From Elusimicrobiota bacterium (GTDB lineage Bacteria > Elusimicrobiota > Elusimicrobia > FEN-1173): a stretch of DNA of 52,686 bases. Below the pieces are notes generated by a model, which was not told the DNA's origin, ran no database searches, and saw nothing but the letters and a program-made list of their open reading frames with translations. Made by a program: the position numbers and the translations under genes. Positions 7,218 through 13,967 of the stretch are shown here, one piece after another. Location of the stretch: assembly GCA_016788905.1 (NCBI GenBank), contig JAEURZ010000004.1, forward strand, positions 100,630 to 153,315. Reading direction: 5' to 3'. Position 1 is the first letter of the stretch. The number at the start of each line of letters is the position of its first letter.

Positions 7218-8048
7218 GTGAGGCTATTCACCCGATCTTTCCGCCAGCCGTTCCTTTCGACCGCCTGGGTGGTCGGTGTTTTTTCCTTTGCCGTGGCTTC
7301 CCCGGTATGGGGTGGAGAAGCCGATATTTCTGTGTTCCCTTCCGAACGGGTGGTTCGGTCCACCCATTTCATTTTACACTTCGAAGACGTCTCGGTTCCC
7401 GCGGGCGTTTTGAACACGCTGGAAGGGCTTCACGCCAAACTCCTCTTGGATTTAGGTTGTTTTTCACCGTGGGCTTATCAAGAGTCGATTCGCGTTTACC
7501 TATACCGGGACGGGGAAAGTTATGCGTCTCGCACAGGAATGAACCCTTGGGCTTTGGCCCATATCAATATTGGGGCGAAAACAATTTACGCCCATTCGTC
7601 GTCGGACTTGCAACGTGTGTTTGCCCACGAATTGGGTCATCTTTTTTTCTCGCAGTTCTTTATCGCCAAATCCACTGTTCCGCCCCTCTGGTTAAACGAA
7701 GGGGTGGCGAGTCTCATGGAGTGGCAATACGGGTTGGAAAAAAATCTGAAAGCGATGGATCGGCAATTGATCCTGAAGGGGACGATCCCGTTTGATCAAT
7801 TTCTTTCTTACAACTACGCCCACGCCAACGCGGGGGATGGGGAGAGCGTTGGGCATTGGTACCTTCAAGCTCAAAGCGTGACGCGTTACTTGATGCGCGG
7901 TTTTTCCCAGGCCCAATTTGTCCAGTTGTGTGGGGAACTTCGCGCGGGGCGTACTCTGGATGAGGCCCTTCGGGCTGCCTATGGATTGGCCATCCCCAAC
8001 ACGGTCGCTCTTGAACGTTTGTGGCGAGAGACAATCACTTCTCCCTAG
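7218..8048 (+). CDS. Exported MA-clan (gluzincin-like) metallopeptidase
   Basis: Encodes 276 residues, starting with GTG. A signal peptide is visible (hydrophobic stretch at about 14-31, ending near VWGGEA), so the enzyme should act in the periplasm or outside. The zinc motif HELGH (H137, E138, H141) and the downstream glutamate of NEGVASLME (E161) are spaced as in peptidase MA-like gluzincins. The substrate is unknown. It has its own leaderless-type promoter after the rimP-ribF operon and ends against the minus-strand subtilase, with a shared hairpin terminator at 8085-8111. Confidence 0.8.
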   Translation: MRLFTRSFRQPFLSTAWVVGVFSFAVASPVWGGEADISVFPSERVVRSTHFILHFEDVSVPAGVLNTLEGLHAKLLLDLGCFSPWAYQESIRVYLYRDGESYASRTGMNPWALAHINIGAKTIYAHSSSDLQRVFAHELGHLFFSQFFIAKSTVPPLWLNEGVASLMEWQYGLEKNLKAMDRQLILKGTIPFDQFLSYNYAHANAGDGESVGHWYLQAQSVTRYLMRGFSQAQFVQLCGELRAGRTLDEALRAAYGLAIPNTVALERLWRETITSP

Positions 8049-8084: not shown

Positions 8085-8111
8085 TCACCGTTTAAGCACG
8101 GTGACTTTTTT
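8085..8111 (+). terminator. Convergent terminator hairpin
   Basis: TCACCGT (8085-8091) pairs perfectly with ACGGTGA (8098-8104) around a 6-base loop, followed by C and six T (8106-8111). It serves the plus-strand metallopeptidase gene. The same stem overlaps the last codons and stop of the minus-strand subtilase; read on that strand it is followed by GGGTTTT, so it may work weakly in both directions. Confidence 0.75.
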
Positions 8112-10130
8112 AAAGGCGCGACCTCCAGGGTAACGAATTTCGCAATAATAGGCGCCGTTCCTGACGAAGGCCCCCTCGTCGTCTCTCCCATCCCATTCGT
8201 TTCCATCACCCAGATCCCGGACCAGTGTCCCTCCTAAATTGTAGACGCGCGCGTGAACGGGGTCCGTTTGCGCACTTTCCACCTCGATGACCATTTTTTC
8301 GTTGCGCGTGGGGTTGAACAGGTTGTTCTGGAGCGTGACAGTGGGGGTGACCGGGCTTTCTGTTGTGGTGAACGTTTGATCTGAAGACGCGGCACTGTTT
8401 TCGGCGATGTCTTTCGCTAGGATCCGGTAGTGATAAAGGGTTTCAGCGGTGAGACCGTAGAGATAGAGACTGTGGGAAGTGCCCCGGGGGGTGGTCAAGA
8501 CAGTCGTCGACCCATAGTCCGAGGTTCGTCCATATTCGATCTCGCTGGTCGCGGGTTCATCGGTCCTCCAGGTCAGGGTGGCGGCTGAGGAAGTGATGCG
8601 GGAGGGGGCAATGGCGGATAGGACGGGGGCTGTGGTATCGGGTTGGCTCAGCGTGACGAACGTCCGATTCGTTGAAGTGGTCCAATTTTCCGATGCGTCT
8701 TTCGATTTTACTCTGTAGTGGTAGCGCGTTTCAGGGGTGAGTCCCAGAAGTGTTTGGCTGTGGATGGTGGCCAAGGAGGCGTCCAGCGGGCTACTGGATC
8801 CATAGCCCTGGGTGAGTCCGTATTCAATTTGTGTTGTGGCGGGTTCATTGGTGGACCAGCTGATGGTGGCGCTGTCGGCGGTGATCCCGGTGGCCCCAAT
8901 GGAAGTGAGCAGGGGCGCGGTGGTGTCGATGGGACCGTTGATCGCTTGAAGGACAGCGGCGTTCGCATCGACTCGGCCGAACCCGTATCGATCGTCCCGG
9001 CCAGCGGCCCCGAGGTCGAGGGCGGTGGTAAAGAGGATGTTGTCCAACTCGTCGGATGTTAGGGCCGGGTTGACGGCAATCATGAGGGTATAAATCCCGG
9101 CTGTCAAAGGAGCCGAAAAAGACGTTCCACTTTGGGGACCGTACGTTCCTCCATCCAGAGTGGTCCAAAGACCCTCCCCAGGGGCGGCCACATCAACGGA
9201 TGGGCCGAAACTGGACCAGCTGGTTTGGTTGTCCAAATTGTTCGTGGCGGAGACACAGGTCAGCGCGGAACTGGGCGTGGCGGGGGTCACCGCTCCGGTG
9301 TTCCCTGCGCTCACGATAACCACACCTTTTTTCGTACGCATATACTGGGCGGCGGAAATAACGGCGCCCCCACTGCAGGAATCCCCGTAACTGATGTTCG
9401 CCACGCGCGCCCCGTTGTCCGCCGCAAAAATGATTCCAGAGGCCATGGTGCTCCAGAACGCATACCCGGCTTCATCGGAAATTCGCAGGGGCATGATCGA
9501 AGCGTTCCAGGCCACGCCCGTCACCCCCAACGCGTTATTTCCGATGGCCGCCGCCACACCGGCCACCGCTGTCCCATGTCCAAAAATGTCGGAGGTGTCG
9601 TTATTGTCATCATAGAAATTCCAACCGGCAACCAACCGCGAGGCCAGGTCGGGATGGTCGGGGTCAACCCCAGTGTCTAAGATGGCCACGGTCAGACCGG
9701 TTCCTGTTCCCATGTCCCAGGCGGCGGGGGCCCCAATGAGGGGCAGATGCCAAGAGTCTGTGTACCGTGAATCGTTGGGGAGGAACGTGGGGGCCGCACG
9801 ATAATCCGGTTCCGCAAATTCCACAGCGCCGGTGGCTTCCATTTGATCCGCCAGTGATTCTTCCCCGCGGGGAGGGAGGGTGAACTGTTCCAGTGTAAGA
9901 CCGGCACCCAAGTCCCGGCTGTTCTGAGGGGTGTGGAGCAGGCGTAGGGAATCAAATTGGGATTCTTGGGAAACCGAAACGCTCGGAGCGCGCTTATAAA
10001 TTAAGAATCCGGCCTGGCGTGTTTGATCACGCAAGCGGCCCCCTTTCGCCGGAAACGCGGCCTGGGCGAAAGAAGCGAAAACAAAAAAGAGAATAAGGGT
10101 TATCGGTAATTTAGGAGAAGCGAAAGACAC
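8085..10130 (-). CDS. Secreted subtilisin-like (S8) protease with two FN3-like domains and a C-terminal sorting-like domain
   Basis: Encodes 681 residues, starting with GTG, with AGGAGG a few bases upstream. A signal peptide (about 1-24, ending FAQA) is followed by a propeptide-like region and an S8 catalytic domain. The triad is D152 (AILDTGVD), H185 (FGHGTAVAG) and S337 (SGTSFSAP). Two tandem FN3-like domains (about 398-495 and 498-590) share the pattern W-x-T-[ND]-E-P-A-T-x-x-x-E-Y-G. The last 85 residues form a beta-rich domain with NNLFNPTRNEK, VYNLGGTLVRDL and NGAYYCEIRYPGG, resembling FlgD-like or type IX secretion C-terminal sorting domains. It lies 12 bases downstream of the PorV-like gene, so the two form an operon. 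The protease assignment is firm; the secretion route is inference. Confidence 0.9.
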   Translation of the reverse strand: MSFASPKLPITLILFFVFASFAQAAFPAKGGRLRDQTRQAGFLIYKRAPSVSVSQESQFDSLRLLHTPQNSRDLGAGLTLEQFTLPPRGEESLADQMEATGAVEFAEPDYRAAPTFLPNDSRYTDSWHLPLIGAPAAWDMGTGTGLTVAILDTGVDPDHPDLASRLVAGWNFYDDNNDTSDIFGHGTAVAGVAAAIGNNALGVTGVAWNASIMPLRISDEAGYAFWSTMASGIIFAADNGARVANISYGDSCSGGAVISAAQYMRTKKGVVIVSAGNTGAVTPATPSSALTCVSATNNLDNQTSWSSFGPSVDVAAPGEGLWTTLDGGTYGPQSGTSFSAPLTAGIYTLMIAVNPALTSDELDNILFTTALDLGAAGRDDRYGFGRVDANAAVLQAINGPIDTTAPLLTSIGATGITADSATISWSTNEPATTQIEYGLTQGYGSSSPLDASLATIHSQTLLGLTPETRYHYRVKSKDASENWTTSTNRTFVTLSQPDTTAPVLSAIAPSRITSSAATLTWRTDEPATSEIEYGRTSDYGSTTVLTTPRGTSHSLYLYGLTAETLYHYRILAKDIAENSAASSDQTFTTTESPVTPTVTLQNNLFNPTRNEKMVIEVESAQTDPVHARVYNLGGTLVRDLGDGNEWDGRDDEGAFVRNGAYYCEIRYPGGRAFKKVTVLKR

Positions 10131-10142
10131 GGGACCTCCTGT

Positions 10143-11162
10143 TCATTGCCGATCCCCGACAGTGTGGCGGTGGGGGGCGGATTTTTCTTTGGAGGGAAGC
10201 GGTCGGTGGGCGAGAGGGCTCCATCGCCAGGTTAAATCCATTCCATGCACGCCCCCCAGCGCACCGGCGGATCGGTAGGCGTAGTCGAGATCCATGCGGG
10301 TGGAGGCGAACGGGAGTCGGAACCCGAGCCCCGCGGCCCAGCGGTCTTGATTCTCGGTATCTCGAACGGCCATCCCCGTTCGGAAGATCAATAGTTTCCG
10401 AAATTCGTATTCCACTCCCAGGCGCGGACTCGTCTCTCCATTCGCCAGCCGGGCCAGGTCCACGGCAACAAGTCCCCGATGGGAATTTCGGCCCCGGAAG
10501 GTGTAGGCCGCTCCGGCACTCCACAGGCGGGGAAGATTTTCTGACCCGATCTGGCCCCCCCCGTTTTGAAAGGCGACCCCCAGGGAGACTCGATTTTTAA
10601 GGAATCGCCATTGCGCTCCCAAATCCACGGATTGGCCCACGTCCGTTCCCGACTCAGCCACCTCGGACAAAAAACACCGTGCCGCAACCCCCAAGGAGAG
10701 GGAAGGAAGGCGAGGGGAGAATCGTTGCACGTTTCCGCCCCAGGAACCGCTGATCACTGTTTCTGTTTGAGCGTCCAGGCTCCCCGTGGGAGAGCCCCCC
10801 AGCGGGAGGACCTCCATGGTTCCGGCGGTTGCTTTGTTGAGGTGAATTCCCCAGGTTCCCGTCCTCACGCTGGGCCACAAGAGACCCAATCCTGTGCCGC
10901 GAATTTCTTCAAATCCAACGAGGGATTGGGCCCGAACACTTCGTGACGCAATGTCGGCCAGGGCCGCGGGGTTATGGAAAACACCGTCTTCGTTAGCGGG
11001 GATGGCGGTGTCGGCGTTCGCCAGGGCGGATCGCCTCGCCCCAGGGGAAAGAGAGGACCACAGATCGTCGGCCCAGGAGAGGGGAGACGTCGCGAGCCAG
11101 GCGCTCATTAAGAAACCACATCGGATCCCCCCGCGTAGCGCGAGGGGGATGTTGACGGACAT
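10143..11162 (-). CDS. PorV/PorQ-like outer-membrane beta-barrel protein
   Basis: Encodes 339 residues. A hydrophobic segment (about 17-31, ending PLSWA) is a signal peptide. The mature N-terminus has the family-typical pattern GARRSALANADTAIPANED followed by VFHNPAAL. The rest is a series of alternating beta strands ending at DLDYAYRSAGALGGVHG, consistent with an FadL/PorV-type barrel. PorV-family proteins act as outer-membrane chaperones or shuttles for C-terminal-domain cargo in type IX secretion; others have unknown roles. GAGAGG lies 7 bases before the ATG. A promoter is seen at 11208-11236. The direct downstream subtilase could be its cargo (inference). Confidence 0.72.
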   Translation of the reverse strand: MSVNIPLALRGGIRCGFLMSAWLATSPLSWADDLWSSLSPGARRSALANADTAIPANEDGVFHNPAALADIASRSVRAQSLVGFEEIRGTGLGLLWPSVRTGTWGIHLNKATAGTMEVLPLGGSPTGSLDAQTETVISGSWGGNVQRFSPRLPSLSLGVAARCFLSEVAESGTDVGQSVDLGAQWRFLKNRVSLGVAFQNGGGQIGSENLPRLWSAGAAYTFRGRNSHRGLVAVDLARLANGETSPRLGVEYEFRKLLIFRTGMAVRDTENQDRWAAGLGFRLPFASTRMDLDYAYRSAGALGGVHGMDLTWRWSPLAHRPLPSKEKSAPHRHTVGDRQ

Positions 11163-11708: not shown

Positions 11709-13967
11709 ATGTCCAATGTTGAAAAACTCGAAATTGAAATCGGCGACAAAAAAATCTCTTTTGAAGTGGGAGAAGTGGCCCGTCAGGCGGCGGGGGGATG
11801 TTTCGTTCGTATGGGGGACACCGTGGTGTTGGTGGCTGCCGCTCACGGGACCAAACCCCGTGAAGATCGGGATTTCTTTCCGTTAACGGTGGATTACCGT
11901 GAGCGGACGTATGCCGCGGGGCGTATCCCTGGGGGTTTCTTTAAACGGGAAGGGAAAGCCCGTGATGGCGAAATTTTGACCAGCCGTATCATTGATCGTT
12001 CTGTCCGACCCTTGTTCCCGGAATTTTTTCGTTTGGAAGTCCAATTGAGCGCGCTCACCCTGTCGCATGATGGGTTGCACGACACGGATATCCTTGCGGT
12101 TTTGGGCGCGTCGATTTCCCTCGGAATGTCGGCCCTGCCCTGGAACGGGCCCATTGGTGCCATCCGGATCGGGCGTGTGGACGAACGCTTCCTCTTGAAC
12201 CCCACTTTGGATGAACAAGAGCGCAGCACACTCGATCTCGTGGTGGCGGGAAAGAAGGGATCCATTTTGATGGTGGAAGCCGGAAGTTACGAGTTGTCCG
12301 AGGAAATGATGTTGGAAGCGCTGTCTATTGCCCAAGTGGAAATAGATCGTTTGTGTGATCTGCAAACGGAGTTGTTTCATCGGATCGGGAAGCCGAAAAT
12401 GGCGGCACCCATTCCCGCTGTTGATCTCGACCTCTCGCGCCAAGTGAACGAGATGGCACGGAATCGTTTTAAAGAGGCTGTCCGCACCGCCGACAAGGCC
12501 ACGCGCGAAAATATGATTTCTGCCATTAAAACCGAGGTAAAAGAAAAACTGGTGGTTGATTATCCGGACGCAGGTAATGTCGTGAACGGAATTTTTGAAG
12601 CCATTGAATATGAGGAAGCCCGCCGGTTGATCTTGGATGAGAGTCGACGGACGGACGGTCGTGGGTTTGAGGAAGTTCGGCAGATTACCATTCGGAACGG
12701 CGTTTTGCCACGCACCCATGGGTCCTCTTTGTTTACCCGAGGACAGACGCAGGCTCTTGCGGTAGCCACCCTGGGGTCTCCCGCGGACCAACAGATCATG
12801 GACGAGTTGGAGGGGGAATACAAAGAACGCTTCATGCTGCACTACAATTTTCCTGGGTTCTCAACGGGCGAACCCAAACCTGAACGTGGGCCTGGTCGGC
12901 GTGAAGTGGGGCACGGGGCGTTGGCTCGACGGGCGCTTTTGCCTCTCTTGCCGGACCCAGAAAACTTTCCTTACACGATGCGGGTGGTCTCCGATATCTT
13001 GGAATCCAACGGATCTTCGTCAATGGCCAGTGTCTGCGGAGGGTCTTTGGCGTTGTTTGATGCCGGGGTCCCCATGAAAAAAGCCTGTGCCGGGATGGCT
13101 ATGGGGCTGGTAAAGGAAGGGGAGCGATCCGCCGTCTTGACGGACATCATGGGAATGGAAGACCATTTGGGCGACATGGATTTTAAAGTGGCCGGAACCA
13201 CCGATGGCATCACGGCCCTTCAAATGGACATCAAAATTGAGGGGATCTCCATTGCGATCATGAAGCAAGCTCTGGAGCAGGCCAAGCGTGCCCGCCTGTT
13301 CGTCCTTGGGAAAATGAACGAGGTTCTGGCTGAACCGCGGGCGGAAATGTCGGCCTACGCCCCTCGCATGGAAGTGGTTCAGATTCCGGTGGCTAAAATT
13401 GGCGCTTTGATCGGACCTGGGGGTAAAAATATTCGGCGGATCATCGAGGAATCCGGGGCGCAGGTGGATGTGGAAGATGACGGGAAGGTCTATATCACCG
13501 CGTCGGACCGCTCTTCTTTAGAGACCGCCAAGCACCAGGTGGAGTCCTATTCCGCGGAAGTGGAATTGGGAAAGATTTATAAGGGCACTGTTGTTCGTAT
13601 CATGCCCAAACTGGGTGCTTTTGTGGAAGTGATGCCTGGAAAAGATGGCTTGGTCCACATATCCCAATTGGACGTTAACCGTGTGGAAAAAGTGGAAGAC
13701 GCCGTTAAAGTGGGCGATGAAATTGAAGTGAAGGTCATTGAAATTGACACTATGGGTCGGGTGAATTTATCCAGGAAGGCGGTGTTGAAGCCCGGTTCCG
13801 AGTTGGAAGGTGGCGGTTTGCCCTCTCAGCGCGGTGCAGGCCGTGGGGGTCCCGACAGTCGAGGTGGGCGGGACGGACGTGGTGGTCCTCCCCGGCGTGA
13901 ATTTCGGGGTGGCGGTGAGCGTCGCGGCGGTTCTGGCGACCGACCGGGCGGACGCGGTTATAATTAA
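11709..13967 (+). CDS. pnp: Polyribonucleotide nucleotidyltransferase (PNPase)
   Basis: Encodes 752 residues. PNPase degrades RNA 3' to 5' using phosphate and is a core enzyme of bacterial RNA turnover. Two RNase PH domains flank an all-helical domain; the second has the conserved FPYTMRVVSDILESNGSSSM and DHLGDMDFKVAGT active-site segments. A KH domain (IGPGGKNIRRII, near residue 566) and an S1 domain (about 620-690) follow. The last 50 residues form an unusual Gly/Arg-rich tail with repeated RGG and GGRD/GGGE motifs, not part of the conserved enzyme. AGGAGA lies at ribosome-binding distance before the ATG. Confidence 0.97.
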   Translation: MSNVEKLEIEIGDKKISFEVGEVARQAAGGCFVRMGDTVVLVAAAHGTKPREDRDFFPLTVDYRERTYAAGRIPGGFFKREGKARDGEILTSRIIDRSVRPLFPEFFRLEVQLSALTLSHDGLHDTDILAVLGASISLGMSALPWNGPIGAIRIGRVDERFLLNPTLDEQERSTLDLVVAGKKGSILMVEAGSYELSEEMMLEALSIAQVEIDRLCDLQTELFHRIGKPKMAAPIPAVDLDLSRQVNEMARNRFKEAVRTADKATRENMISAIKTEVKEKLVVDYPDAGNVVNGIFEAIEYEEARRLILDESRRTDGRGFEEVRQITIRNGVLPRTHGSSLFTRGQTQALAVATLGSPADQQIMDELEGEYKERFMLHYNFPGFSTGEPKPERGPGRREVGHGALARRALLPLLPDPENFPYTMRVVSDILESNGSSSMASVCGGSLALFDAGVPMKKACAGMAMGLVKEGERSAVLTDIMGMEDHLGDMDFKVAGTTDGITALQMDIKIEGISIAIMKQALEQAKRARLFVLGKMNEVLAEPRAEMSAYAPRMEVVQIPVAKIGALIGPGGKNIRRIIEESGAQVDVEDDGKVYITASDRSSLETAKHQVESYSAEVELGKIYKGTVVRIMPKLGAFVEVMPGKDGLVHISQLDVNRVEKVEDAVKVGDEIEVKVIEIDTMGRVNLSRKAVLKPGSELEGGGLPSQRGAGRGGPDSRGGRDGRGGPPRREFRGGGERRGGSGDRPGGRGYN

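Follow-up and report, generated by a model that had tools for sequence, protein, structure and literature searches.

In Flavobacterium johnsoniae, the tail of a type IX substrate binds within SprA and loops of PorV hold it at the lateral opening, PorV being thought to depart together with the substrate (PMC10994853); a motor pulls the loaded carriers off SprA in Bacteroidota (PMC10994853, PMC12635249). Type A tails all use PorV, whereas Type B tails use cognate carriers of the PorP/SprF kind, often encoded by adjacent genes (PMC12618676). The system has been called Bacteroidetes-specific or rare outside that phylum (PMC7323717, PMC5837995), and a paper from 2024 describes its genes as absent from phyla outside the Fibrobacteres–Chlorobi–Bacteroidetes (FCB) group (PMC11285876). 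Our literature search, in which most subscription journals and preprints were not covered, found no report of a type IX system in Elusimicrobia. Here, we explored a stretch of 52,686 nucleotides (hereafter, the window; C4:100630-153315) from a 2.51 Mb, 99.85% complete genome of the phylum Elusimicrobiota, in which the gene for a PorV-family outer-membrane barrel is followed by that for an S8 subtilase ending in a beta-sandwich domain, or tail. Our analysis suggests that this pair is probably one among some 18 carrier-cargo units serving an SprA-based, type IX-like route in this bacterium.

With the Type A system of Bacteroidota, the Elusimicrobiota genome has in common SprA, PorV-family barrels and terminal beta-sandwich tails, borne in both by enzymes, for example, proteases, and by glycan-binding proteins. 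However, the Type A system has one PorV, whereas here there are about 20 PorV-family genes, most of them beside a cargo gene; furthermore, neither the catalytic region of PorU nor GldL was recognised here, and the phylum is a different one. In the Type B arrangement of F. johnsoniae, a cargo gene is followed by the gene for its own PorP/SprF carrier, the same order that is found in 14 of the 18 pairs described below. By contrast, the carriers here are of the PorV family, the best fold matches of the window tail are Type A-like (PorZ and PorU), and the window pair itself is reversed, with the carrier preceding the cargo. The Elusimicrobiota arrangement is a combination of PorV-family carriers with Type B-like pairing.

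Recurrent pairing of PorV-family and tail genes

On the minus strand of the window, the carrier gene comes first and the subtilase gene begins 12 bases downstream, exactly as the original prediction had it. Because AGGAGG lies in this short gap, four bases ahead of the GTG start of the subtilase, the two genes are very likely co-translated. The further proposal that they form a dedicated carrier-cargo pair gains support from the rest of the genome, across which PorV/tail pairs recur. A genome search with the NCBIfam model PorV_fam (NF033709) yielded 24 matches, merged to 22 genes, with 9 places over the curated cut-off. One gene (C16:60982), at first counted as PorV, was dropped, given that it matches FadL with an E-value of 3.6e-37, as against 1.2e-10 for PorV. 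Among the remaining 21 PorV-family genes, 18 are neighbours of a gene whose product carries the tail domain. The tail gene is located directly upstream, within 300 bp and on the same strand, for 14 of the 22 PorV_fam genes, and the order is carrier first, tail gene downstream, in 4 pairs, namely, those of the window, C13 (beside the SprA gene), C15 and C3:41360. Of the others, the genes on C1 and C7 have no tail neighbour, that on C26 adjoins a truncated remnant, and the 22nd is the FadL gene. The cargoes comprise two S8 proteases and one M6 protease, along with glucoamylase-like, carbohydrate-binding, NHL, FG-GAP and fn3-rich proteins. The NCBIfam PorU model, which does not derive from the window genome, matches 15 places in it, all by the C-terminal domain, and 9 of these adjoin PorV genes. 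Among relatives, where 20 regions were chosen for their PorV matches, 15 of the 26 PorV genes lie next to a gene whose product ends in a tail, and the carrier follows the cargo in 11 cases.

Carriers and tails also co-vary. A Mantel test (20,000 permutations) on 16 of the 18 own-genome pairs, leaving out two in which one member was broken or weak, gave r = 0.35 and p = 0.004, and a test on 14 pairs of relatives gave r = 0.56 and p = 0.0004, to which shared genomes may add signal. A version with 15 pairs of relatives (0 of 20,000 permutations) was set aside because it included a truncated gene. By distance, the closest tail to that of the window is the one on the C15 S8 cargo, and the window tail is itself the closest to that of the M6 protease encoded beside SprA; in all three of these protease pairs, the carrier precedes the cargo. 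The window carrier has no clear orthologue in the 119 genomes searched, and its matches elsewhere are 22–33% identical. A tblastn search of plasmids with the subtilase found only subtilases below 60% identity, none extending over more than 80% of the query.

Three units extend into a gene for a TPR protein or TPR-fused carrier, a histidine kinase and a response regulator (L033:4605-8957, L037:7342-11197 and L039:4459-9483), as though the units were separately regulated; these TPR and two-component genes were not accepted as evidence for GldK/PorK, GldN/PorN, PorT, PorW/SprE or PorX/PorY. Closely similar carriers are found in two places (L046:212-6307 and L047:5610-7895), one with a 1380-aa cargo and the other with a 110-aa remnant that has the same last residues, which looks like the effect of recombination or of assembly.

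The tail domain, the barrel and the SprA homologue

The last ~85 residues of the subtilase had been likened to a type IX signal domain, an impression that family models neither confirm nor deny: the scores are weak for CHU_C (16.7 bits of 27), FlgD_ig (15.8 of 27) and TIGR04183 (12.3 of 23), and, by themselves, would be insufficient to assign the domain. In addition, 19 other proteins, all encoded near PorV genes of the same genome, end in the same domain, and its own structural model has type IX signal domains as its best matches. A profile seeded with the window tail picked out 23 proteins among 384 open reading frames (ORFs) around PorV genes, in 20 of which the domain ends within 13 residues of the C-terminus (it is internal in 3), and gave 27 matches genome-wide at E<=0.01. 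The consensus is marked by a G, W-D-G and G-x-Y. The AF2 model of the window tail has a pLDDT of 92.7, and a Foldseek search of the PDB placed PorZ, the translocon-bound NucA signal domain and PorU first; the Z-scores are 10.2 for the NucA domain, 9.9 for Ig-like domains of streptococcal proteases, 9.6 for PorU, 9.2 for the mirolase tail and 9.1 for PorZ. By fold, the C-terminus is closest to type IX signal domains, in a tie with the streptococcal Ig-like domains, and by sequence it resembles FlgD as well.

The relationship to FlgD extends to motifs, given that the FlgD Ig-like domain (PF13860, FlgD_ig) has W-D-G and G-x-Y in common with the tails, and several sister cargoes pass its gathering score, for example, with 50.7 bits, whereas the window tail fails. 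The tails here end the protein, whereas the FlgD matches stop short of the last strand: those of the tail profile start at about position 18 and end at 68–76 of 85, and the type IX matches, to PorZ (6.5e-6), PorU and RgpB, reach position 82–85. FlgD is not among the listed fold matches of the tail model, which we do not count as evidence against it. FlgD-like domains occur in other settings too, fused to a PorV barrel (L036:7642-9216) or together with OmpA in a protein whose gene adjoins a carrier gene (L035:4296-5747); a role of these two proteins in wall anchoring is possible.

The window carrier matches NF033709 with an E-value of 2.2e-22 and 80.1 bits (cut-off 90), is far below the cut-off of the narrower PorV equivalog NF033710, and scores 10.4 bits with Toluene_X (PF03349, FadL/TodX), thereby not passing the gathering score of 29.7. 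PorP/SprF models are not among the 5 families listed for it at E<=10, with no dedicated test made. A profile built from 16 own-genome PorV genes finds F. johnsoniae PorV in the PDB with an E-value of 2.1e-28, whereas no FadL-type protein does better than 1.9e-5. The carriers share the barrel fold with the FadL family, and have an NPA motif near the N-terminus, which is also a feature of FadL; yet, their profile is more than 70 bits closer to PorV, whereas the sole FadL-like gene of the genome scores FadL first. For the model of the window carrier (mean pLDDT 63.4, with the barrel mostly at 63–89), Foldseek gives PorV as the top match (1.0e-6). PorV-family barrels with C-terminal TPR extensions are also found (L034:8358-10313 and L037:7342-9135).

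That Bacteroidota might not be alone in having a type IX-like route was raised as a possibility in the original prediction, and the presence of a Sov/SprA homologue in a member of Elusimicrobiota speaks in its favour. TIGR04189 (Sov/SprA) matches four pieces within one 1816-aa frame of the genome, and the whole protein scores 140.5 bits (E 3.7e-41), under the equivalog cut-off of 200. A profile of 18 SprA homologues finds only F. johnsoniae SprA in the PDB (E 2.4e-34; the next entry is at 0.98), with three significant stretches collinear between the two; as a single sequence, the SprA of the window genome finds nothing there (best E 0.94), so that an alignment is needed for detection. SprA is present in 165 of the 198 sampled genomes of Elusimicrobiota. 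In a set of SprA loci from named genomes (80 kept of 214), nearly all carry names such as Elusimicrobia, Elusimicrobiota or Endomicrobia; those remaining are labelled 'bacterium', apart from one 'Clostridia' metagenome-assembled genome. The tail profile matches in 157 of the 165 genomes with SprA versus 4 of the 33 without, and three of these four are assemblies of 180–280 contigs. Hence, a further type IX component accompanies the pair, and the C-terminus does not fall clearly into the FlgD class.

Beside SprA, genes resembling lptF/lptG are found in divergent orientation in 20 of 21 neighbourhoods and 53 of the 80 named loci (e.g., L029:14131-16283), which may point to a connection with the handling of lipopolysaccharide. 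Further, SprA is followed by two gene families that were at first guessed to be pilus genes but are those of GAPDH and phosphoglycerate kinase. In the relatives G157 and G012, a first look gave 116 and 96 tail candidates (only 27 scored); in some relatives, a type IX-like route may serve a large part of the surface proteome.

A proposed route and its alternatives

We read the route as type IX-like, working in the manner of the translocon-carrier step, and predict that the subtilase is secreted. The subtilase would enter the periplasm via Sec, as its N-terminus suggests, whereupon the PorV-family partner encoded with it, sitting at the lateral gate of SprA, would use its loops to bind the beta-sandwich of the subtilase within the SprA barrel; the partner would then take the subtilase outside and either retain it on the cell surface or free it. 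Computation shows the two genes with their order, the fold of the tail, the SprA homologue, the recurrent pairing in genome and phylum, and the co-variation of carrier and tail sequences; from these we infer that secretion occurs, that the partner acts as the specific carrier, where the proteins reside and what supplies the energy. Because our searches of the genome turned up neither GldL nor the catalytic region of PorU, both of them defining features, we do not class the route as a canonical type IX secretion system. With no such sortase or motor subunit recognised, anchoring and powering are either unlike those of Bacteroidota or too diverged to be recognised.

Several results weigh against this reading, and some of them lend themselves to other explanations. 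The window PorV and the window tail both score under curated cut-offs; the tail profile, compared with the PDB by sequence, scores FlgD (2.3e-10 to 5e-7) above type IX domains; and, in fold, the streptococcal Ig-like domains tie with type IX domains. In the low-pLDDT model of the carrier, PorV (Z 18.2 and 18.1 for F. johnsoniae PorV) ties with FadL types (17.5 for CymD, 17.2 for FadL), so that fold alone is not decisive. The FlgD matches, the tie with FadL types and the FlgD-like domains located inside proteins on L035 and L036 would suit a scenario without type IX-like transport, in which a FlgD-like Ig tail served to assemble the surface or matrix and the barrel were an ordinary FadL/porin-type channel. 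We consider this scenario highly improbable, given the position of most tails at the very C-terminus, as in type IX cargo, the first rank of type IX domains in the fold search, the far greater proximity of the PorV profile to PorV than to FadL, and a SprA homologue that is not only present but co-occurs with the tails. That co-occurrence has its own limits, as 8 genomes with SprA have no tail by our profile, 7 without SprA keep 1–2 PorV-family genes without tails, and the listed genomes without SprA all come from one family with many reduced genomes, so that they represent few independent losses. Furthermore, the tail profile was built from PorV-adjacent genes, which biases it toward pairs, and the own-genome Mantel test gives p = 0.078 once three of the closest paralogues are removed. 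Correlated distances would, indeed, also result from joint duplication alone. SprA-based export could be real without the carriers being dedicated, such that any PorV-family protein takes any tail and adjacency reflects duplication of cassettes; the single consensus common to the tails, the existence of tail genes without a PorV neighbour (e.g., C22:26206) and the sharing of PorV by all Type A tails of Bacteroidota (PMC12618676) are in line with this. It is nevertheless rather unlikely, because one shared carrier would suffice and yet 21 diverged PorV paralogues have been kept, 18 of them beside a tail gene, and because the SprF carriers of a related system do pair with cognate cargo (PMC12618676).

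The remaining points against the type IX-like reading of the pair concern the machinery. Among the components that the original prediction named, SprA/Sov was found, in contrast to GldL, for which there is no match at E<=1 in the 99.85% complete genome (7 candidates scored; strong divergence could hide it), and to the catalytic region of PorU, whose profile matches in the window genome by the C-terminal domain only. The C25 peptidase domain (PF01364) was detected in just 1 of 60 genomes, and GldM in 0 of 60, a search in which the controls gave no signal either. These absences would be illusory if Elusimicrobiota possessed a full type IX system with a motor and sortase too diverged for profiles, which would be compatible with our reading of the pair. 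In favour of this, SprA itself falls under its curated cut-off (140.5 of 200 bits), and the GldM search had no positive control; but with no GldL match at E<=1 in a nearly complete genome, and the C25 catalytic domain not found in 59 of the 60 genomes, we regard a full system as rather unlikely. A different solution could be a substitute sortase. A tail-bearing M6 metalloprotease is encoded in 10 of 21 SprA neighbourhoods, mostly with a PorV-like gene adjoining and mostly with lptF/lptG on the opposite strand before SprA, and in 10 of the 80 named loci, many of which have short flanks; HE-x-GH is invariant in all 10 aligned M6 proteins. Of 99 genomes, 36 are matched by the M6 profile and 22 contain a close form (E below 1e-90), whose gene shares a contig with SprA at a distance of about 10 kb or less in 17 genomes and is on a different contig in the other 5. 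We therefore rejected a universal M6/PorV pair beside SprA, and SprA must function without M6 in much of the phylum. As a guess, this pair could stand in for PorU in those members of the phylum that have it next to SprA. The comprehensive version, in which a phylum not belonging to the FCB group has a type IX-like system with per-cargo PorV carriers and without a PorLM motor or PorU, and where in part of the phylum the tail-bearing M6 protease, with its PorV partner beside SprA, performs PorU-like processing, strikes us as unlikely.

If the window pair belongs to a type IX-like route, the SprA/PorV/tail set of most sampled Elusimicrobiota would shift our view of the origin or spread of type IX secretion and would reveal which of its parts make up a minimal core. 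It would also supply many natural carrier-tail pairs for the study of cargo recognition, and it predicts which Elusimicrobiota enzymes sit at the cell surface.

Layout of the window pair

The coordinates of the pair and its domains are compiled in the table. By eye, the Asp/His/Ser motifs of the subtilase S8 domain are intact and its hydrophobic N-terminus was taken to be a signal peptide; in the domain search, PF16656 and PF00041 each match two stretches of the protein.

Table. Features of the carrier-cargo pair (window coordinates; aa, amino acids)
Feature	Coordinates	Strand	Basis
PorV-family outer-membrane barrel, proposed dedicated carrier	10143..11162	-	ORF of 339 aa; PorV_fam match
Carrier stretch aligned to the PorV_fam profile, aa 37-311	10230..11054	-	
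Intergenic 12 bases with AGGAGG, ribosome-binding-like, ahead of the subtilase GTG	10131..10142	-	direct reading
S8 subtilase, putative cargo, 681 aa, GTG start	8085..10130	-	ORF and domain search
Peptidase_S8 domain, aa 143-385, E 1.4e-46	8976..9704	-	domain search
fn3 / purple-phosphatase-N-like repeat 1, about aa 411-493	8652..8900	-	domain search
fn3-like repeat 2, about aa 508-588	8367..8609	-	bounds from a weak Arylsulfotran_N match, 508-588
C-terminal signal-like beta-sandwich, last 86 aa	8088..8345	-	alignments, AF2 model, PDB matches

On one side of the pair, the gene for a Peptidase_MA_2 protein (7218-8048, plus strand) is convergent with the subtilase gene; the other flank is occupied by a gene at 11709-13967 (plus strand), which we take to be pnp-like.

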